Shown here in pieces: positions 4,586 through 23,648 of a stretch of 23,648 nucleotides of DNA. Source of the DNA: a virus; IMG/VR virus record IMGVR_UViG_3300023087_000104, positions 1 through 23,648 of that record, one strand, 5' to 3'. Made by a program: the position numbers and the translations under genes. Positions within the stretch are counted from its first letter, which is position 1; each line of letters opens with the position of its first letter. The notes beneath the pieces are model-generated. The model was not told the origin of the DNA, did not search any database, and worked only from the letters and a program-made list of their open reading frames with translations.

Positions 4586-7072
4586 ATGTTAGGTTTTAGT
4601 CCTCTATCTTCAGCCCCCCTCTCTGATCTTGGAGCTGGCGCGGGCGTAACCGTCAATGTAACCGGCGTTCAGGCTGCTACTGGTCTGGGTTCTGCCTCTG
4701 TTGGCATCTCTTTTACCTTCAACGCTACGGGAGTCCAAGGCACTACAGCCCTAGATTCTGTAGTTGTTAGCCTTCCCAGAACGGTCTCAGCTACCGGAGT
4801 CTCTGCCACTGGAGCTACCGGAAGCGTAACGGTAAACACTGAGATTTCAGTAATAGTCCCTCTTGGCGGTTGGGGTCGAGGGGGCTGGGGCGATTTTGCC
4901 TTTGGTACGGGTGGCTTAGGGGTATCCGCCTCTGGTGAAGTAGGATCGGTATCTGTATCTTTTGGCGCGACAGCTAACGTCACCGGGCTAGAAGCCACCA
5001 CTGCTCTCGGTAGTGTCACCGTCACGGCTGATGCAAATGTAAACGCTACCGGAAATGAAGCTACAGGCGAAGTAGGCTCGGTAACTGCCCAAGCAGACGC
5101 TAATGTTTCAGTCACTGGGGTTTCTGGTACTACTGGGCTAGGAAGCGCAACAGTCACCGCTGATGCCAATGTAAGCCCGACAGGCAACGAAGCCACAGGC
5201 GAAGTAGGCTCACCCACAGTACAGGGAGATGCCAACGTATCGGTAACAGGGGTTGCCGGAACCACCGCTTTAGGTAGCGTTACCGCTAAGACTGACGTTG
5301 ATATAAGCGTCACAGGCAATGAAGCTACAGGTGAGCTGGGTACAGTAACCACCACGGCTGATGCCAATGTGTTCCCCACAGGTGTTGCCGGAACCACTGC
5401 GCTAGGCAACACCGCAGTACAGGCCGATGGGTCAGTAGAGGCTCTTGGTAACGCTGCTACCGGCGAGCTGGGCACAGTCACAGTACAGGCTGACGCTAAC
5501 GCCATAGTTACTGGAGTTTCGGCCACCACTGCTGTTGGCACTGTAGACATTGCAACCGGCATTTTCGTTGATGTCACGGGGGTCGAAGCCACAGGCGAAG
5601 TAGGTACTGTAGCTACGCAGGCTGACGCTAATGTCTCTGTAACTGGGGTTTCGGGGACTACTGCCCTTGGGTCAGCTTCGGTATCTCTCCCTGCGGAAGT
5701 CTCTGTAACAGGCGTAGAAGCCACGACCGCCCTTGGATCGGTAACTGTAGCCCTGCAACTAGATGTCCCTGTAACGGGCGTACAGGGCGCTACAGGGCTT
5801 GGAACGGTAACAACGCAGGTTGATGCCAATGTCTCAGTGACAGGGGTTTCCGCGACCACCGCTCTGGGTAACACCGCAGTACAAGCTGACGGTTCAGTGG
5901 AGGTTCTGGGCAACGCTGCCACGGGTGAAGTTGGAACCGTAACCCCCACAGCAGACGCCAATGTCTCGGTTACTGGGGTTTCTGGCACTACTGCTCTAGG
6001 CACGGCCACTGTAGACCTACAGCTAGATGTTCCTGTGACGGGCGTCGAGGCCACCGGAGAGCTTGGTACACCGACAGTATCAGGCGATGCAATAGTCTCG
6101 GTTACTGGGGTTTCCGCAGAGGCTTCAACACTAAATAACGGTTCTGAATTTACCGCAGATGGAAACGCGCAGCTTTCAACAGCCCAAGCTAAGTTTGGTT
6201 CTGCTTCACTACTGCTTGATGGCACAGATGACTTTGTAGCGTCTGACGACAACATTGACCTAAGTTCCGGTGATTTCACGGTAGACCTGTGGATTCGTCC
6301 GACAAATGTTACGGGCTACAAAGGAATTTGGCAGACTGGTACAAGCACAACAGAACAGTCCTATTTATTAGGTAACCAAGTTTATTGGGTTGTAAACCCA
6401 TCAACAATTATTAGTAGTTCAGTCACCGTGTCTGCCGGTGTTTGGACAATGTTGTCTTATGAAAGAGAAGGAAATGTTCATAGGATATATAAAAATGGAA
6501 CCTTAGAAGATACGTTTACCACATCTAATACACCTGATAGTGGCGTCTTTAGTGTTGGTAAAAACGGCTTTGGTGATTTTAACGGGTATATTGATGAGGT
6601 ACGACTTTCATCTGTAGCCCGTTATGAAGGCACATCCTTCACAGAACCGGTTGCAGAGTACGAAGTAGACAGAGACACTACAGCACTACTGCATTTTGAC
6701 GGTATCAATGGTTCTACGGATATAGTCAACGAAACAGCGGGTAATGTTACCGTACAGCTTGGCATAACCGTACAAGCCACCGGAGTTCAAGGCACAACCC
6801 AGCTAGGCAGTGCAGTAGTCGCGGGTGGCGCAAACGTGTATCCTATCGGGGTTCAGGCTGTAGGACGGCTTGGAACTACGCTAGTTTGGGGTACAATAGT
6901 TCCTGACCAGAATCCGAACTGGGCGGGCATAGGGCCGTCTCAAGACCCCAACTGGACGCCTGTAAGCGGCACAAATGACCCGAACTGGGTAGAAATAAAC
7001 GAAACCGGCTCGCCCGGTTGGACTGAAATTACCAATACCGACCCACCAGATTGGACGGAGATAGCGGCATGA
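4586..7072 (+). CDS. 22-residue-repeat fibre protein with inserted LamG-like lectin domain and Trp repeats
   Basis: 828 residues, starting directly after the previous stop. Residues 26-506 hold 21 repeats of exactly 22 residues (typical start TGVSGTTALGSVTV or TGNEATGEVGSVTV, end ADANVSV). A 19-residue Gly/Trp insert (GGWGRGGWGDFAFGTGG) lies between repeats 3 and 4. Repeat 22 begins at residue 507 and is interrupted after TGVSA by a concanavalin/LamG-like domain (about 512-720: FGSASLLLDGTDDFVAS, GDFTVDLWIRP, GVWTMLSYEREG, GYIDEVRLSSVARYEG). It resumes at 721 with VTVQLGITVQA, and two more repeats follow. The C-terminus (774-828) has Trp every 11 residues in a DPNW context. The repeats probably form a beta-rich shaft displaying the lectin domain. 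Carbohydrate binding at the host surface is inferred. No enzyme motif is seen. Confidence 0.8.
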   Translation: MLGFSPLSSAPLSDLGAGAGVTVNVTGVQAATGLGSASVGISFTFNATGVQGTTALDSVVVSLPRTVSATGVSATGATGSVTVNTEISVIVPLGGWGRGGWGDFAFGTGGLGVSASGEVGSVSVSFGATANVTGLEATTALGSVTVTADANVNATGNEATGEVGSVTAQADANVSVTGVSGTTGLGSATVTADANVSPTGNEATGEVGSPTVQGDANVSVTGVAGTTALGSVTAKTDVDISVTGNEATGELGTVTTTADANVFPTGVAGTTALGNTAVQADGSVEALGNAATGELGTVTVQADANAIVTGVSATTAVGTVDIATGIFVDVTGVEATGEVGTVATQADANVSVTGVSGTTALGSASVSLPAEVSVTGVEATTALGSVTVALQLDVPVTGVQGATGLGTVTTQVDANVSVTGVSATTALGNTAVQADGSVEVLGNAATGEVGTVTPTADANVSVTGVSGTTALGTATVDLQLDVPVTGVEATGELGTPTVSGDAIVSVTGVSAEASTLNNGSEFTADGNAQLSTAQAKFGSASLLLDGTDDFVASDDNIDLSSGDFTVDLWIRPTNVTGYKGIWQTGTSTTEQSYLLGNQVYWVVNPSTIISSSVTVSAGVWTMLSYEREGNVHRIYKNGTLEDTFTTSNTPDSGVFSVGKNGFGDFNGYIDEVRLSSVARYEGTSFTEPVAEYEVDRDTTALLHFDGINGSTDIVNETAGNVTVQLGITVQATGVQGTTQLGSAVVAGGANVYPIGVQAVGRLGTTLVWGTIVPDQNPNWAGIGPSQDPNWTPVSGTNDPNWVEINETGSPGWTEITNTDPPDWTEIAA
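4661..6103 (+). repeat. Tandem 66-bp coding repeats, 21 copies with one 57-bp insert
   Basis: Direct reading gives 21 units of 66 bases. Most start with ACxGG, coding for Thr-Gly; three start with Leu-Gly. Units alternate loosely between a T-T-A-L-G type and an A-T-G-E-V/L-G type. Nucleotide identity between units is uneven because synonymous positions have drifted, but some segments recur nearly exactly, such as the NTAVQADGSVE unit followed by LGNAATGE (5408-5470 and 5870-5932). This points to duplication of multi-unit blocks. The 57-base insert coding the Gly/Trp segment is at about 4859-4915. Confidence 0.85.
6905..7069 (+). repeat. Five 33-bp coding repeats with Trp every 11 residues
   Basis: Trp codons fall at residues 779, 790, 801, 812 and 823 of the 828-residue protein, exactly 11 apart. 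Each Trp is preceded by a P-N, P-G or P-D pair. The strict spacing suggests one structural unit per 11 residues, possibly a small trimer-forming or anchoring tip. Confidence 0.8.
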
Positions 7073-10291: not shown

Positions 10292-10513
10292 ATGGACTTT
10301 CAAACGGGATTTAATGTTTTTCTAGGGATAGTCAGTTTTGGTGGTGGTTGGCTCGTTAACAGAGTCTTTGTACTGCTAGACAGAATGGATGCAGACATGA
10401 AGCAAATCCCTGAGAAGTACGTGTCTAAAGACGATTACCGAGAAGACATTCGTGAAGTCAAAGAGATGCTGGGGGCCATATTCAAGCGGCTCGACAACAA
10501 GGCAGACAAATGA
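10292..10513 (+). CDS. 73-residue membrane-anchored coiled-coil protein in lysis block
   Basis: The ATG at 10292 is chosen because AGG lies about nine bases upstream and the product then starts MDFQTGFNVFLGIVSFGGGW, like related phage proteins; the frame is open further upstream but would overlap the previous gene. Residues 7-28 are hydrophobic and form one membrane segment. Residues 30-73 are charged and helical (EKYVSKDDYREDIREVKEML, FKRLDNKADK). It is coupled to the lipase gene by an ATGA overlap. Candidate roles are holin, antiholin or spanin component; the sequence alone cannot decide. Confidence 0.7.
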   Translation: MDFQTGFNVFLGIVSFGGGWLVNRVFVLLDRMDADMKQIPEKYVSKDDYREDIREVKEMLGAIFKRLDNKADK

Positions 10514-11196
10514 AAATCGACCCCGTACTGCTCAACATGGCCGCAAGCTGGTCGCTGAAGGCGTATAACGACAAAAACAAAAGTACCATTAAAGTAGAAA
10601 ACAAGATGACGGGAGCCACGGCTTTCGTAATCAAGCGCAAAACCATAGATGTCATTGCCTTCAGGGGTACTCAAAAGAAAGTAAACGATGTCCTCACCGA
10701 CATGTTTGTACTCCCTGTGCCGTATGTCGGGAGGCTGTGCCACGGAGGCTTTGTAGCCCAGCACGTCTCTATATGGGGAGAGATCGAAAAACACCTAGAC
10801 CCCAAGAAGCGCACCCTGATAACCGGCCATAGCCTTGGTGGGGCGTTAGCGGAGCTGTCTGCGGCTAAACTGAACGGCAAGCACGAGAACATAAACCTGA
10901 TTACTTTCGGTAAGCCAAACGTGTTTTTCAAAGGGTTCAAGCGTCCAATGAAGCTCGATACCCAGATATCCTGTGTGCAGGGTAGTGATGTGGTGGCTAG
11001 AATCCCACGGTTCTGTTATGGCCCCTCTAAGTCCCAAGACATGCTGTACTTCAGCAATACGGGCGGAACACTGATTAACCCTAAGAGAAGTTTCCGTGTG
11101 GCAGACCGAGGGGGTCTGAAAGACCGAGTTGCCGATCATTGTATGGAAGGCTACAAGCACAGCCTGACTCGTTTTCTGGAGGAGGAACACAAATGA
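10510..11196 (+). CDS. Class 3 lipase-like alpha/beta hydrolase in lysis block
   Basis: 228 residues. The lipase class 3 pattern is clear: VIAFRGT at 48-54 (oxyanion region), the nucleophile elbow GHSLGGALAELSA with Ser108, NINLITFGKPNV (G-x-P strand), GSDVVARIPR with Asp160 as catalytic acid, and His210 in VADHCMEGY as the probable catalytic base. All three triad residues are in the usual order. The family hydrolyses acyl esters of glycerolipids. There is no signal peptide, so release to membranes would depend on the holin or on cell lysis. It lies between membrane proteins and a lipoprotein, upstream of the lysozyme, with ATGA overlaps on both sides, which argues for a role in lysis. An injected or virion-borne lipase is an alternative. 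Confidence 0.85.
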   Translation: MKIDPVLLNMAASWSLKAYNDKNKSTIKVENKMTGATAFVIKRKTIDVIAFRGTQKKVNDVLTDMFVLPVPYVGRLCHGGFVAQHVSIWGEIEKHLDPKKRTLITGHSLGGALAELSAAKLNGKHENINLITFGKPNVFFKGFKRPMKLDTQISCVQGSDVVARIPRFCYGPSKSQDMLYFSNTGGTLINPKRSFRVADRGGLKDRVADHCMEGYKHSLTRFLEEEHK

Positions 11197-11910: not shown

Positions 11911-13782
11911 ATGGCTGTCAGAAAACTACAATTCAAACCGGGTGTAAATAGAGAAACCACCCGTTACGCCGCCGAAGGTCAGTGGTACGACACTAACAAG
12001 GTGCGCTTCAGACGTGGGCTACCCCAGAAAATAGGCGGGTGGCAGCGTATTTCCTCAGAAACTTATTTAGGTGTGGCCAGATCACTGCATAACTGGGTGA
12101 CCCTTTCTGGCCAAAACATAGTAGCCCTTGGCACTAACCTGAAATATTACCTCGAACGTGGGGGTGCCTATTTCGATATTACCCCCATTAGAGCTACTAC
12201 AGCAGCCGGTGACGTGACTTTTGCTGCTGTTGATGGTTCTGCCACTCTTACTGTTACTGACACAGCCCACGGTGCCTCACAAGGCGACTACGTGACATTT
12301 TCCGGTGCGGTATCTCTGGGCGGCAACATTACGGCTGATGTATTAAACGCAGAATATACAGTAACCACTGTGGTAGACGATGACAACTACACCATCACAG
12401 CTACGGCCACGGCCAATGCGTCTGATACAGGCAACGGCGGGGCTTCTGTCGTAGGTGCGTACCAGATACCTGTCGGCAATGAGATCGAGGTGCCCGTTAC
12501 TGGTTGGGGTGCAGGGCGTTGGGGTTCAGGCACTTGGGGTACGGGTGGTTCTACCAATGCTTCTATGCGGTTGTGGTCAGAAGCTAACTTTGGCGAGGAC
12601 TTGTTTTTTGCCTACAGAGGAGGCGTACCGCTTTACTGGGACGCCACAAACGGCACTACGACAAGAGGTGTATACGTCAGTTCCTTGGGTGGAGCGTCCG
12701 ATGTACCTACTATAGTAAATCTAGCGTTTGTATCAGACATATTTCGCTTTGCGTTCTGTTTTGGGGCGAATGACTTGGGCGGCTCTACGCTTGACCCCAT
12801 GCTGATCCGTTGGTCAGACCAAGAAGACGTGGCTAACTGGACGCCTGCCGCTACCAACCAAGCGGGTAGTTTGCGCCTGTCAGAAGGCACAGAAATCGTA
12901 GACGCCATCCAAGCACGTCAAGAGGTGCTGGTCTGGACTGATTCGGCCTTGTACGGCCTACAGTATCTGGGTGCTCCAGAGGTATGGGGAGCGCAGCTTC
13001 TGGGTTCAAACCTGACCATAGCCAGCCCGAATGCGGCGGTATACTCAAACAACATTGCCTACTGGATGGGCACAAACAAGTTTTACTATTACGATGGTAC
13101 GGTCAAGACGTTACCCTGTGACGTGCGCAGCTACGTATTTGATGACTTCAACCAAGAGCAGGTTGACCAAGTAATCTGTGGCTCTAACGAGCAGTTTGAT
13201 GAGATATGGTGGTTCTATTGCTCTTCTGAAGCCACACAGAACGACCGTTATGTGGTCTATAACTATGTCGAAAACGTCTGGTACTACGGCACACTAAGCC
13301 GTTCGGCGTGGATTGATTCAGACATACGAGAGTACCCGATAGCTGCTACTTTTAGTAACAACTTGGTCTATCAAGAGTACGGCGTGGATTGTAACGAGCT
13401 AGGCTCGGCGAACCCGATTGTGGCTACTATAACCTCGGCACAGTTCGATCTGGACGATGGCGACCGGTTCATGCTGATTAACAAGATGCTGCCTGATATG
13501 ACGTTTGACGGCTCTACAGCGGATTCTCCTGCGGCTACCATGACTCTGAACCCCTTGGAAAACTCAGGTTCTGGGCGGTATGACCCAGCCTCAGTCGGGG
13601 GTAACAGCAGCGCAACGGTCACCAGAACAGCCGTATTGCCTGTAGAAGAGTTTACAGGGCAGGTATTTACACGGGTACGGGGTCGGCAGATGTCGATCAA
13701 GATTGAGTCTACAGAGCTAGGAGTAACGTGGAAACTAGGCGCACCTAGAATGGATATGCGGCCTGACGGTAGGAGAGGTTAG
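11911..13782 (+). CDS. P22 gp10-like DNA-stabilisation / tail-hub protein
   Basis: 623 residues. The N-terminus FKPGVNRETTRYAAEGQWYD, then NKVRFRRGLPQKIGGW, and the C-terminus VRGRQMSIKIESTELGVTWK with GAPRMDMRPDGRR are signatures of the marine-phage relatives of P22 gp10, which closes the tail machine to keep packaged DNA in. Strand-loop repeats in between (YWDATNGTT, MLIRWSDQEDVANWTP, LVWTDSALYGLQYLG, YWMGTNKFYYYDGTVKTLPC, DEIWWFYCSS) suggest a propeller. Residues about 99-175 (DTAHGASQGDYVTFSGAV, LNAEYTVTTVVDDDNYTITA) look like a small FCCH-type beta barrel inserted in it. Residues 198-213 are a Gly/Trp segment (GWGAGRWGSGTWGTGG) that resembles the one in the repeat protein at 4586. GAGG precedes the ATG. 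Confidence 0.75.
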   Translation: MAVRKLQFKPGVNRETTRYAAEGQWYDTNKVRFRRGLPQKIGGWQRISSETYLGVARSLHNWVTLSGQNIVALGTNLKYYLERGGAYFDITPIRATTAAGDVTFAAVDGSATLTVTDTAHGASQGDYVTFSGAVSLGGNITADVLNAEYTVTTVVDDDNYTITATATANASDTGNGGASVVGAYQIPVGNEIEVPVTGWGAGRWGSGTWGTGGSTNASMRLWSEANFGEDLFFAYRGGVPLYWDATNGTTTRGVYVSSLGGASDVPTIVNLAFVSDIFRFAFCFGANDLGGSTLDPMLIRWSDQEDVANWTPAATNQAGSLRLSEGTEIVDAIQARQEVLVWTDSALYGLQYLGAPEVWGAQLLGSNLTIASPNAAVYSNNIAYWMGTNKFYYYDGTVKTLPCDVRSYVFDDFNQEQVDQVICGSNEQFDEIWWFYCSSEATQNDRYVVYNYVENVWYYGTLSRSAWIDSDIREYPIAATFSNNLVYQEYGVDCNELGSANPIVATITSAQFDLDDGDRFMLINKMLPDMTFDGSTADSPAATMTLNPLENSGSGRYDPASVGGNSSATVTRTAVLPVEEFTGQVFTRVRGRQMSIKIESTELGVTWKLGAPRMDMRPDGRRG

Positions 13783-17400: not shown

Positions 17401-18174
17401 ATGAAATATTACAACAACGGCGGTAACGTAAATAACGTAACAGCAGAAGAGTCTTCGCTCTCTAGCTGGGCTGGCCCGTATGTAACCGACATGCTTGGTC
17501 GTGGCGCGGCTTTGGCAAATATGCCGTATACCCCCTACGAAGGCCCACTTACCGCTGGGGCTTCTGAACTACAGCAACAAGCCTTTGCTGGGTTAGGCGC
17601 GTTAAGCGCACCGAGTACCTTAACTGGGGGGACTACGCAGCAACAAATTGCTGGTCTAATGAACCCATATATTGAACAGGCGCTGAACCCACAGCTAGAA
17701 GCCGCCAGACGCCAAGCCGAAATACAAGCACAGCAGCTTCAAAGCCAGTACGGTAAAGCCGGTGCGTACGGAGGTTCTCGACAAGGTGTGGCCGAAGCTG
17801 AGTTACAGCGCGGACTACTGGACAGGATGGCCCAACTTACCGGAGAAGGCTACCGAACTGCGTACGATAAAGCGGTTGACCTATTAGGTAGAGAGCGAGG
17901 ATACGGCTTGGATGCTCTAGCTGCGCAACGACAAGCAGGTGCAGAACAACGAGCTATAGAGCAAGCAGGTGTAGCTGCTGACATAGCGCAGTTTGAGCAG
18001 GAAAGGGACTACCCATATAAGCAGACACAGTTCATGCAGTCGTTGTTGCAAGGCTTGCCTTTGGAGACTCAGAGTTATTCGTATTACCAACCGTCTGGGC
18101 TACAGAATTTGCAAAGTGGGCTGTCTGATGTGACAGGTATATACAGTCTTTTAAGCGACTATTTCGGGTCTTAA
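17401..18174 (+). CDS. Conserved internal virion-type protein, Gln/Ala-rich helical
   Basis: 257 residues, GAGGTTGAG before the ATG. Signature blocks are YTPYEGPLTAGASELQQQAF, MNPYIEQALNPQLEAARRQA, KAGAYGGSRQGVAEAELQRG, and FEQERDYPYKQTQFMQSLLQ followed by GLPLETQSYSY. I recognise this combination from many uncultured marine phages, normally followed by a long helical protein as here. It is mostly alpha-helical with no membrane segment and no enzyme motif. The gene block 14443-20511 probably encodes proteins carried inside the head or the tail core. The Gly-Gly step NNGGNV at the N-terminus echoes those in its neighbours. Confidence 0.7.
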   Translation: MKYYNNGGNVNNVTAEESSLSSWAGPYVTDMLGRGAALANMPYTPYEGPLTAGASELQQQAFAGLGALSAPSTLTGGTTQQQIAGLMNPYIEQALNPQLEAARRQAEIQAQQLQSQYGKAGAYGGSRQGVAEAELQRGLLDRMAQLTGEGYRTAYDKAVDLLGRERGYGLDALAAQRQAGAEQRAIEQAGVAADIAQFEQERDYPYKQTQFMQSLLQGLPLETQSYSYYQPSGLQNLQSGLSDVTGIYSLLSDYFGS

Positions 18175-20522: not shown

Positions 20523-23500
20523 ATGGCAGACCAACAAAACTTTTTTGACCAGTTTGATACTGCAAAAGAAAATGTCGCTCAAGATAATTTCTTTGACCAG
20601 TTTGACACTGGGTTAGACGAGGCTCAACCTCCCGCAGAACAAGAGCCTGTACAAACGGTTGATGGTAATTTCTTCGATCAGTTTGACCCTGTGCAGGTAG
20701 AACCCCCAGCCCAAGAACCTCCTCCCGTACAGTCCAATATATTGCGGGAGGCTGCTGACATACCTCTGAATCTTGCCAGTGGCGTAGTTACTGGTACGAA
20801 GCTAATCACAGATATCTTTGGTGCAGATAATCCTGTCTCTCGACAACTAAGCGGAGTCGAAGAGTATATAGACGGACTTCTCTCTGCACAGGCTAAAGCA
20901 GACCAGCAAGAAGTTGCTAGGATCATGCAAGAAGCCGAGGACAAAGGCGCAGGAGCGCAAGTCAAAGCCGCTCTCAGAGCGTTTGCTACTTCCCCATTAG
21001 ACTTTGCTGCACAAGGCGTAGGCACAATTATCCCTGCTCTCGCTGCCGCTGTGTATGGCGGTACAGTTGGTGTGGCTGGGTATGGTGTTGGTTCTGGTGT
21101 TGGCCTAGTAAAAGACGCCGTATTCAGCACTGTTAATGACGAAATGCTCAAGCAAGGTCTTAGCGAGCAAGAAGCTAGAGAAATTGCAACGCAGGCACAG
21201 TCTTATACAGGCGATAACTTAGACATGATCGCGCTGGGTGGTGCATTCGGCTGGTTGGCATCTAGGTTTGGTGTGCCAGAAACAGTGCTTAAAACTGAAT
21301 TTGGTAAGCGCCTAATGCAAGATGGGCTAAGTCGTGGCGTTGTTAGGAACATGGTTGAAGCCGCTGGGCGAGAGGGCGCACCAGAAGCCATACAAGCAGC
21401 CCAAGAACGCTTTGCCCAGAACCTAGCTCTGCAAAGAGAAGGCGTGGACGTACCACTTAGTCGTGGCGTAGTAGGCCAAGCTGCATTGGAAGGCATTGTC
21501 GGTGGCATTATCGGTGGCGGTGTAGGTGCGGTCGAGGCGCAGGTTGCGGACACTGCGCGAGCAGAACAAGAAGCCGAAAGAAGAGCGTTGGAAACAGAAG
21601 GCTTAGAAGTAGAGGCGCAACCAGAAGAAGTCGTAGCGGAAGAAGTTGCAACTGACGAAGAAGGAGACATTGAGGCTCCTGTTTGGTTTGATGCGATAGC
21701 AGATGAAGTAGATGCAGACCAAGGGCAAGAAATAGACCCTGAAAAGATCGGTCGTTTAGTTGCCCAGTACGGACAAGAAGCGGCTGAGATGTACGTCAGA
21801 GGTGTGCGCGGAGAAGGACTGACTCTTGCCAGAACTGAATCAGCGCCTGAAGTAGACACAGAAACTGACACAGCAGAAATAGGTGGAATAGATACTAACC
21901 AAGATGAAGCTGCGCCAGCACAAAAAGAAGAAGTCAGGGATGAACCGACTCCGGATGATTACGAAGCATGGATGGCGGGGATAGAAACAGATACACAAAA
22001 AGACTTAGACACAATAGAGAATGAAAACATAGATGAGTCTTTGTCTCTTGCCGGTAGCACACCAGAACAAAAGCCTAAAGCAGCGGCAATAACTCCAGAC
22101 CAAGAACAAATCGGGCTGCCCGGCATAGAAGAAGCACCGGAAGCTCAAGTTGGTAGGCCCCCCGTAGAGCGCGCTCCGGAGGCTACTGCCAGAGTTAATG
22201 AGCTGCAAAAAAGACAGGACAACCAGAGAAAATCTGAGATACGCACTGTAGAGAAACTTACAAACTCTCTGGATAGGGGCGTACAGAAAATATTAAGTAA
22301 AAAAGGTTATGTTCCGTTCTTTGCCAACCAAGAGGCTTTTAATGAGTACGACGCTGACCCTGATGCTCAATATGAAGCCAGAGTACAAAGAAGAATACAG
22401 TCATATCGAATACTAGGCGCTAACCCAGAGGAATCTGCACGCCGCGCCCGTAGGGATGCGAACAAGCAGCGAATTGCTTATAACGAGATACAAAACGAAA
22501 TTGCCGCACTGCAAGACAAAACCATAGACCAGCTAGCTGATGTCATCAACATAGCAAACAACTCTAGGTTAGAAGGTAGAGCGGCCCACACTGCTGCTTT
22601 AAGAGCTTTACAGGATGCAAGGCTCACACCAGAGATGCTGGCCGAAGCGCGAAAAAGAGCTAAGGCTAAAGCTCCTACAGGCATAATTCCACTAGAAAAC
22701 AAAACAGTAAGAAACGAAATAGTACCCGGCGAATATGCTCCGTTAGTTCCGCGCAAAGAGATGATTGATGGCCCGATAGAAGAGGTCACAACTGCGGAAG
22801 AAGCAATGGAGGTAATTAACGCTGACACTAACAGGACAGACTTTGAGAGAGGCTTAGCTGCACTGTTTAGGCCGATAGCAAAAAAATTAGCTACGAAGTT
22901 TCAGCTTATAGAAAACTCGGAACAAGTACCGGATGACTTGCTTCAATATTGGGTAGACGAGAACGGAAAGCAAATTTCTGCTGGTCTTTTCGACCCAGAA
23001 ACTAACACCATGTACATAGATTCAGTTGAGGGCTTGGACGCTCGCACTGTATTACATGAAATGATCCATGCCAGTACGCTGGATATAATATCAAGCTTTA
23101 AACAAGGTCTGCTTATATCCCAAGAAGCACAAGCTGCAATAGATGACGCGCTTCTGTTGATGCACCAAGTAGGGGTACAGTACCAAAACTTACTTGCGTC
23201 AGATCGTGCATCACCTGCATTGCAGCGTCTAGCTAAAAGTACAGATAATTTTACTGACATAGCTGAATTTCTTAGCTATGGCATTACCGAGCAACCGCTT
23301 CAAGAGATGTTGCTCAACATGGCTCCTGTAAACAAATACCAACTCGGAGCTATTAAAACAGCATTCTCTAACTTTGTAGACATAATTCGTCGGATGTTGG
23401 GTAGGCCCAGCAGAGACATAAGCGCGTTCGAGCAGCTAATCGACTTGACTGGCCGTCTTGCAGAAGAACAGGTACGCACTAGGCCAAAACGTGCAAGCCA

Positions 23501-23648
23501 AGTGGTGCAAGCCAAGAAGCAAGTAGAAAAGCTTTCTAAGGTGCAGAAGTTGCAGGCGCAGCAAAACACGTTGCGTAAGTTTTTAGGTCAGTCAAAAGGC
23601 ATAATAAACGCGGTTAGAGACCCAGAAAAAGGTATCCGAGACTTCTTG
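20523..23648 (+). CDS. Large polyvalent-type ejection protein with zincin motif, 3' end outside window
   Basis: Open for 1042 codons to the window end. Three identical NFFDQFD boxes (residues 6-12, 22-28, 49-55) sit in an acidic Pro/Gln-rich N-terminus. Residues 165-196 (GTIIPALAAAVYGGTVGVAG, then YGVGSGVGLV) and 324-337 (GIVGGIIGGGVGAV) are glycine-zipper hydrophobic segments that could insert in membrane. A long acidic linker follows (about 345-560), then a Lys/Arg-rich helical part. Residues 813-920 look like a zincin metallopeptidase: GLFDPETNTMYIDSVEG, ARTVLHEMIHASTLD with HEMIH at 845-849, and a downstream DIAEFLSYG whose Glu915 may be the third ligand. This domain, inside a giant multi-part protein next to internal virion genes, fits the phage polyvalent proteins injected with DNA. 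Peptidase activity is predicted, not shown. Confidence 0.75.
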   Translation, partial: MADQQNFFDQFDTAKENVAQDNFFDQFDTGLDEAQPPAEQEPVQTVDGNFFDQFDPVQVEPPAQEPPPVQSNILREAADIPLNLASGVVTGTKLITDIFGADNPVSRQLSGVEEYIDGLLSAQAKADQQEVARIMQEAEDKGAGAQVKAALRAFATSPLDFAAQGVGTIIPALAAAVYGGTVGVAGYGVGSGVGLVKDAVFSTVNDEMLKQGLSEQEAREIATQAQSYTGDNLDMIALGGAFGWLASRFGVPETVLKTEFGKRLMQDGLSRGVVRNMVEAAGREGAPEAIQAAQERFAQNLALQREGVDVPLSRGVVGQAALEGIVGGIIGGGVGAVEAQVADTARAEQEAERRALETEGLEVEAQPEEVVAEEVATDEEGDIEAPVWFDAIADEVDADQGQEIDPEKIGRLVAQYGQEAAEMYVRGVRGEGLTLARTESAPEVDTETDTAEIGGIDTNQDEAAPAQKEEVRDEPTPDDYEAWMAGIETDTQKDLDTIENENIDESLSLAGSTPEQKPKAAAITPDQEQIGLPGIEEAPEAQVGRPPVERAPEATARVNELQKRQDNQRKSEIRTVEKLTNSLDRGVQKILSKKGYVPFFANQEAFNEYDADPDAQYEARVQRRIQSYRILGANPEESARRARRDANKQRIAYNEIQNEIAALQDKTIDQLADVINIANNSRLEGRAAHTAALRALQDARLTPEMLAEARKRAKAKAPTGIIPLENKTVRNEIVPGEYAPLVPRKEMIDGPIEEVTTAEEAMEVINADTNRTDFERGLAALFRPIAKKLATKFQLIENSEQVPDDLLQYWVDENGKQISAGLFDPETNTMYIDSVEGLDARTVLHEMIHASTLDIISSFKQGLLISQEAQAAIDDALLLMHQVGVQYQNLLASDRASPALQRLAKSTDNFTDIAEFLSYGITEQPLQEMLLNMAPVNKYQLGAIKTAFSNFVDIIRRMLGRPSRDISAFEQLIDLTGRLAEEQVRTRPKRASQVVQAKKQVEKLSKVQKLQAQQNTLRKFLGQSKGIINAVRDPEKGIRDFL

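Follow-up and report, generated by a model that had tools for sequence, protein, structure and literature searches.

A predicted zincin-like metallopeptidase domain in a giant, probably ejected protein of a podovirus-like phage

The giant gene and the anatomy of its product

The window, namely the whole stretch of 23,648 nt that was analysed (IMG/VR virus record IMGVR_UViG_3300023087_000104), ends inside a giant gene. Its final open reading frame, on the plus strand at 20523-23648, shows no stop codon up to the window end and encodes the first 1042 of 2104 residues of a putative ejection protein of the PLxRFG/polyvalent type. The complete gene is supplied by a near-identical contig, L003 (L003:7709-14023, 2104 aa), whose product differs from the window ORF at a single residue, I1038V, over the shared part. 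Full-length members of the window clade are mostly about 2000-2200 aa. Since dN/dS between the L003 protein and that of a 95% identical relative, L005, is 0.11 for the whole protein and 0.28 for the zincin domain described below, the protein is under purifying selection.

What kind of genome harbours this gene? The product of 11911-13782 (plus strand) is a virion structural protein (phrog_3287, E 1.1e-70; DSL-LC04, 40.7% over 100%), and annotations of its relatives read tail stabilization or needle-head protein, which indicates a podovirus context. A homologue of DNA ejection proteins (phrog_4287, E 5.3e-8) is encoded at 17401-18174 on the plus strand, upstream of the giant gene, which is the last one in this podoviral late operon; beyond it, L003 continues with replication genes on the opposite strand. 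It is known that the largest ejection protein comes last in podovirus ejection operons (PMC8954989). Because the position of the giant gene fits this order, its product is probably packaged in the virion and ejected with the DNA. The late cluster also holds a lysozyme/endolysin-family protein, whose gene adjoins one for an esterase/lipase-family protein (10510-11196; phrog_21992, E 1e-19). Elsewhere, a 536-codon open frame on the minus strand (4669-6279) lies antisense to an 828-aa gene of tail/baseplate type and is probably a by-product of codon usage.

From the N-terminus, the giant protein consists of three NFFDQFD repeats (20541-20558, 20589-20606 and 20670-20687, plus strand), two hydrophobic stretches rich in Gly/Ala, a low-complexity and then helical part, the zincin domain at residues 759-995, and a C-terminal half that is largely helical and contains a PLxRFG domain. 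The hydrophobic stretches are located at residues 159-187 (20997-21083, plus strand) and at residues 316-342 (21468-21548, plus strand; the Gly-rich GIVGGIIGGGVGA). The original prediction had spoken of pore-like and docking segments linked to the zincin; these likely correspond to the two hydrophobic stretches and the three NFFDQFD repeats, respectively, and their roles are putative.

To judge by their sequences, the N-terminal repeats may be a hypervariable tag for docking or packaging. A repeat with at least 5/7 identity occurs in 49 of 70 N-termini, versus 6% in shuffles. Most full-length relatives have two or three copies of a short motif at the N-terminus (in the window, 20535-20690), with linkers of Pro/Ala/Glu in between; the motif varies by member: NFFDQFD, ENPFLQYV, FSFEEA, FVPFTGKLD, QFGGVPV, IVDPFD, WWEDAP or SPEEWLAQQ. 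Members devoid of tandem motifs (L036, L037, L050, L064 and L154) often begin with MPIYEYQGQQYD...AAKAKILAYLG or MAIEAELADGRILEFPDGTDPAVIQATVKKV. The idea that the motif is a tag common to other ORFs of the locus was discarded, as no second ORF carries it in the available flanks of the same loci, save one chance-like match in L118.

Which known families does the rest of the chain belong to? The PLxRFG model NF032893 matches L003 residues 1273-1785 with 250.4 bits (curated cut-off 100; E 3.7e-74), and profile comparison (877 columns, probability 100) shows the C-terminal half to be homologous to the C-terminus of a DarB-like protein in Serratia phage Parlo. Among 36 aligned relatives, 35 match LPD39 (PF18858) in Pfam with an E of at most 0.01; L003 itself does not. 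Thus, the further polyvalent features anticipated for the protein are indeed found. A model of the C-terminal half (L003 10718-14020; pLDDT 72.7) gave no meaningful match in a PDB search. The possibility that the C-terminal 1101 residues correspond to domain C2 of N4 or to the tails of phiKMV/Prado-type proteins was rejected, with hhalign scores not exceeding those of reversed controls; N4 was also absent from the matches listed in a fold search with the C-terminal model, though the two may be distantly related.

The original prediction had also suggested one multi-part effector, and this part of the proposal found no support: Pfam recognises no second enzymatic domain in the window/L003 protein or in most relatives. 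The sequence beyond the window, where more effector domains were anticipated, brought the PLxRFG domain and no second recognised enzyme. No methylase or helicase was recognised in the 2104-aa protein, Pfam found no RNA polymerase family in it, and L003 has no match to a lytic transglycosylase (SLT), a domain present in the proteins of the Limnohabitans phage and DoCa9. Among the halves preceding the zincin in 32 members, a known enzyme domain was seen in only one, an ART. LPD39 may itself be enzymatic, and poorly modelled helical parts of the chain may hide further enzymes. As for larger relatives (2874-3057 aa), they have a GHKL (HATPase_c) domain, located in L025 at residues 1367-1441, near the zincin; that of L129 is upstream, at residues 1148-1287.

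The zincin-like domain, its conservation and its reach

Residues 759-995 (22797-23507, plus strand; about 237 residues) form, as judged from sequence and structural model, a catalytic-type zincin-like metallopeptidase domain. The domain had been expected at 22950-23300, where it is indeed present, but its true extent is wider. Its HEMIH motif (residues 845-849; 23055-23069, plus strand) provides two histidines predicted to be zinc ligands and the putative catalytic Glu846, whose numbering in the original prediction was correct. As the 1042 residues contain just four histidines and any HExxH appears in shuffled versions at a frequency of 0.001, the motif is beyond chance. Ahead of the active-site helix, DSSP assigns a beta hairpin, GLFDPETNTMYID, to residues 821-833 of the model (22983-23021, plus strand), and the FDPETNTMYID segment that had been pointed out as a preceding strand (residues 823-833) falls within this hairpin. 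The later DIAEFLSYG segment, noticed as well, comprises residues 912-920 and includes Glu915 (23265-23267, plus strand), which is invariant in all alignments and is predicted to be the third zinc ligand. Zincins typically have a distal Glu as a ligand.

The AlphaFold2 model of the domain (pLDDT 82.7, pTM 0.79) shows, in order, a helix, a three-stranded sheet with strands at 821-824 and 829-833, the helix of HExxH (840-860) and that of Glu915 (913-922). Its best match among solved folds is domain C1 of the N4 virion RNA polymerase (vRNAP; 9pnt, residues 2139-2359; Z 9.2, 5.0 A over 185 residues), and the next neighbours are the zincins of lethal factor and PPEP, with Z of 6-8 and all below 8. 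Among predicted viral structures, the best matches are phiKMV-like internal core proteins and polyvalent proteins. Foldseek alone gave no PDB match below E 0.05, and therefore three things carry the case for a zincin: the match to N4, the agreement among the neighbours, and conservation. The expected profile similarity to zincin and polyvalent-protein families was obtained in part: PHROG 2206 matches the stretch around the zincin (residues 561-1031, E 7.8e-19; residues 560-1033 in another alignment), while none of the Pfam zincin models reaches the window protein.

Is the active site conserved because it was sought, or because it is kept? Patterns used in a first family scan contained HExxH and were biased toward it, so that scan was unusable as a test of the motif, and conservation is argued here from a second scan, which used only the C-terminal half and not the motif. 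The zincin is present in at least 57 relatives whose ORF spans the region (a redundant set, among the matches listed), and no copy with a dead active site is seen among these 57. Reduction at 80% identity left 36 relatives; aligned with the window, they make up 37 rows selected independently of the motif, and these bore out the predicted conservation: the sole invariant positions are H845, E846, H849, E915, F916 and F951, while the x positions of HExxH vary, with seven residues at the first (A, L, M, V, I, F and T) and four at the second. A scan of host genomes with a strict pattern yielded just two weak matches in MAGs and was uninformative.

Two of the spanning relatives among the matches listed, L129 and L136, are devoid of the zincin. 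In L129, a weak WLM-like HEASH (residue 1711; Pfam E 5e-4, short of the cut-off) precedes the C-terminal block by about 390 residues; L136 carries an HExxxH at another place, residue 759. Both have other putative peptidase candidates, a hint that proteins of this kind require such an activity, and perhaps one putative peptidase was swapped for another.

How far does the domain reach? An HMM was built from window-type sequences alone, with E-values scaled to 100,000 sequences and reversed decoys at 560 or worse. It detects the Limnohabitans phage protein (3e-30), phiKMV gp37 (4e-29), the Parlo DarB-like protein (1e-25), Pradovirus (1e-15) and N4 (2e-5). For weak N4-type members, the values are 0.1 (L184) and decoy level (L181), and HExxH is intact in both. 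T7 gp16 was examined as a possible member and rejected, since it gives no match and its lone HExxH string is not covered by any domain match. By sequence comparison, one conserved active site is thus common to three kinds of giant protein thought to be ejected. A full-text search of an incomplete library found no paper on a zincin in phiKMV-type ejection proteins. Tentatively, and with rather more doubt than confidence, a peptidase module may be carried by at least three unrelated ejected giants (N4-type RNA polymerases, phiKMV-type gp16 analogues and PLxRFG polyvalent proteins); the reason would be that a protease delivered by the virion against an envelope or ejectosome protein is a widespread and overlooked step of podovirus entry.

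Possible action of the peptidase after ejection

What might such a peptidase do? The two histidines and Glu915 would hold a zinc ion, and Glu846 would activate a water molecule by which a peptide bond is cut. The giant protein would be packaged, pass through the tail as a threaded chain together with the DNA and refold in the host envelope or cytoplasm, and the peptidase would then work on a host or ejectosome protein in trans rather than solely on its own chain. We lean, by a modest degree, toward this whole reading, a zincin of an ejected late podovirus protein that acts after ejection and more likely in trans. A role against host defences or envelope proteins, which the original prediction had raised, is hypothetical. 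In the literature surveyed, no metal or protease activity is reported for any of these phage domains.

Two roles have been proposed for the metallopeptidase domain (MPTase) of polyvalent proteins, self-processing, which is the leading one, and action on host proteins (Iyer et al., 2017; PMC5512222). Self-processing is a strong rival, although we consider it less probable: the zincin would cleave the giant chain to which it belongs, either in the head or once ejected, and so release the membrane-like N-terminal part or else the C-terminal block. It was proposed from DdrB of phage P1, which is processed before packaging (PMC5512222). The central position of the peptidase, with the low-complexity N-terminal half on one side and the helical C-terminal half on the other, suits this idea, and so do the other metallopeptidase candidates of L129 and L136. 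However, no processing of the N4 homologue occurs before packaging (PMC5512222) and recombinant full-length N4 gp50, purified whole, shows no degradation (PMC12633501), so that spontaneous self-cleavage is unlikely in N4. Moreover, as the zincin is the sole recognised enzyme of the window protein, there is little known to release from this minimal architecture. Trans action after ejection is thus a slightly better guess than self-processing.

Could the fold be kept as a structural brick that helps the protein to be packaged or to unfold on its way through the tail, without catalysis? The N4 region containing the zincin is required for encapsidation (PMC5512222), and N4 C1 touches the RNA polymerase in the autoinhibited complex (PMC12633501). 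Nevertheless, H, E, H and E are strictly kept amid free variation, and a brick ought to lose its active site now and then, for which the 57 relatives listed offer no example; we regard a purely structural role as improbable. Even more remote is a non-peptidase metal enzyme on an HExxH scaffold, such as an alpha-ketoglutarate-dependent HExxH hydroxylase, against which speak both the distal Glu ligand and the best fold neighbours after N4, the peptidases lethal factor and PPEP. The N4 structure paper does cite zincins together with alpha-ketoglutarate-dependent HExxH enzymes for its motif (PMC12633501).

With trans action after ejection as the preferred reading, the natural protein at this locus has its own value: it carries a catalytically conserved domain, and its zincin is the sole enzyme recognised in it. 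As the same domain occurs in the laboratory phages N4 and phiKMV, the choice posed in 2017 between self-processing and attack on the host becomes testable with single active-site mutants.

Comparison with known systems

The MPTase of polyvalent proteins was described with an HEXXH helix, a helix with the distal Glu and a three-stranded sheet (PMC5512222), and the window protein shares these elements in an equally giant phage protein encoded by a late gene. The MPTase was also described in N4 vRNAP and linked to the lethal-factor fold (PMC5512222); both the presence in N4 and the link are found here as well. Unlike in the proteins of that description, no enzyme besides the zincin is recognised in the window chain, and Pfam models fail to reach its own sequence; the domain company of the zincin is the PLxRFG domain in the same chain, and LPD39 in relatives only. 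Lethal factor and PPEP have a similar core fold, but they are secreted bacterial proteases with identities of 8-16%.

Among individual phage proteins, Escherichia phage N4 gp50 gives the best structural match through C1 (PDB 9pnr, 9pnt), with the same active-site motif, at H2228, E2229, H2232 and E2310, and, as in the window protein, about 1100 mostly helical residues that follow; the RNA polymerase domain of gp50 is unrecognised in the window protein, and profile and fold searches detect no relation between the C-terminal halves. phiKMV gp37, an analogue of T7 gp16 (PMC8954989), shares the domain at residues 361-571, with HEAVH at 423-427 and Glu496, whereas T7 gp16 itself has no zincin. The internal virion proteins of phiKMV (gp37), Pradovirus and LIMElight are 1337-1632 aa and differ from the window protein at the C-terminus, and the DoCa9 protein, unlike the window protein, has an N-terminal transglycosylase domain. 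Parlo gp81, of DarB-like/PLxRFG type, shares both the zincin and the homologous C-terminal region of about 880 residues, though it is 3764 aa and annotated as DarB-like antirestriction protein while the window protein has 2104 aa. The domain type and the idea of autoprocessing have thus been known since 2017 (Iyer et al., PMC5512222), and what is added here is the extension to the phiKMV-type ejection proteins.
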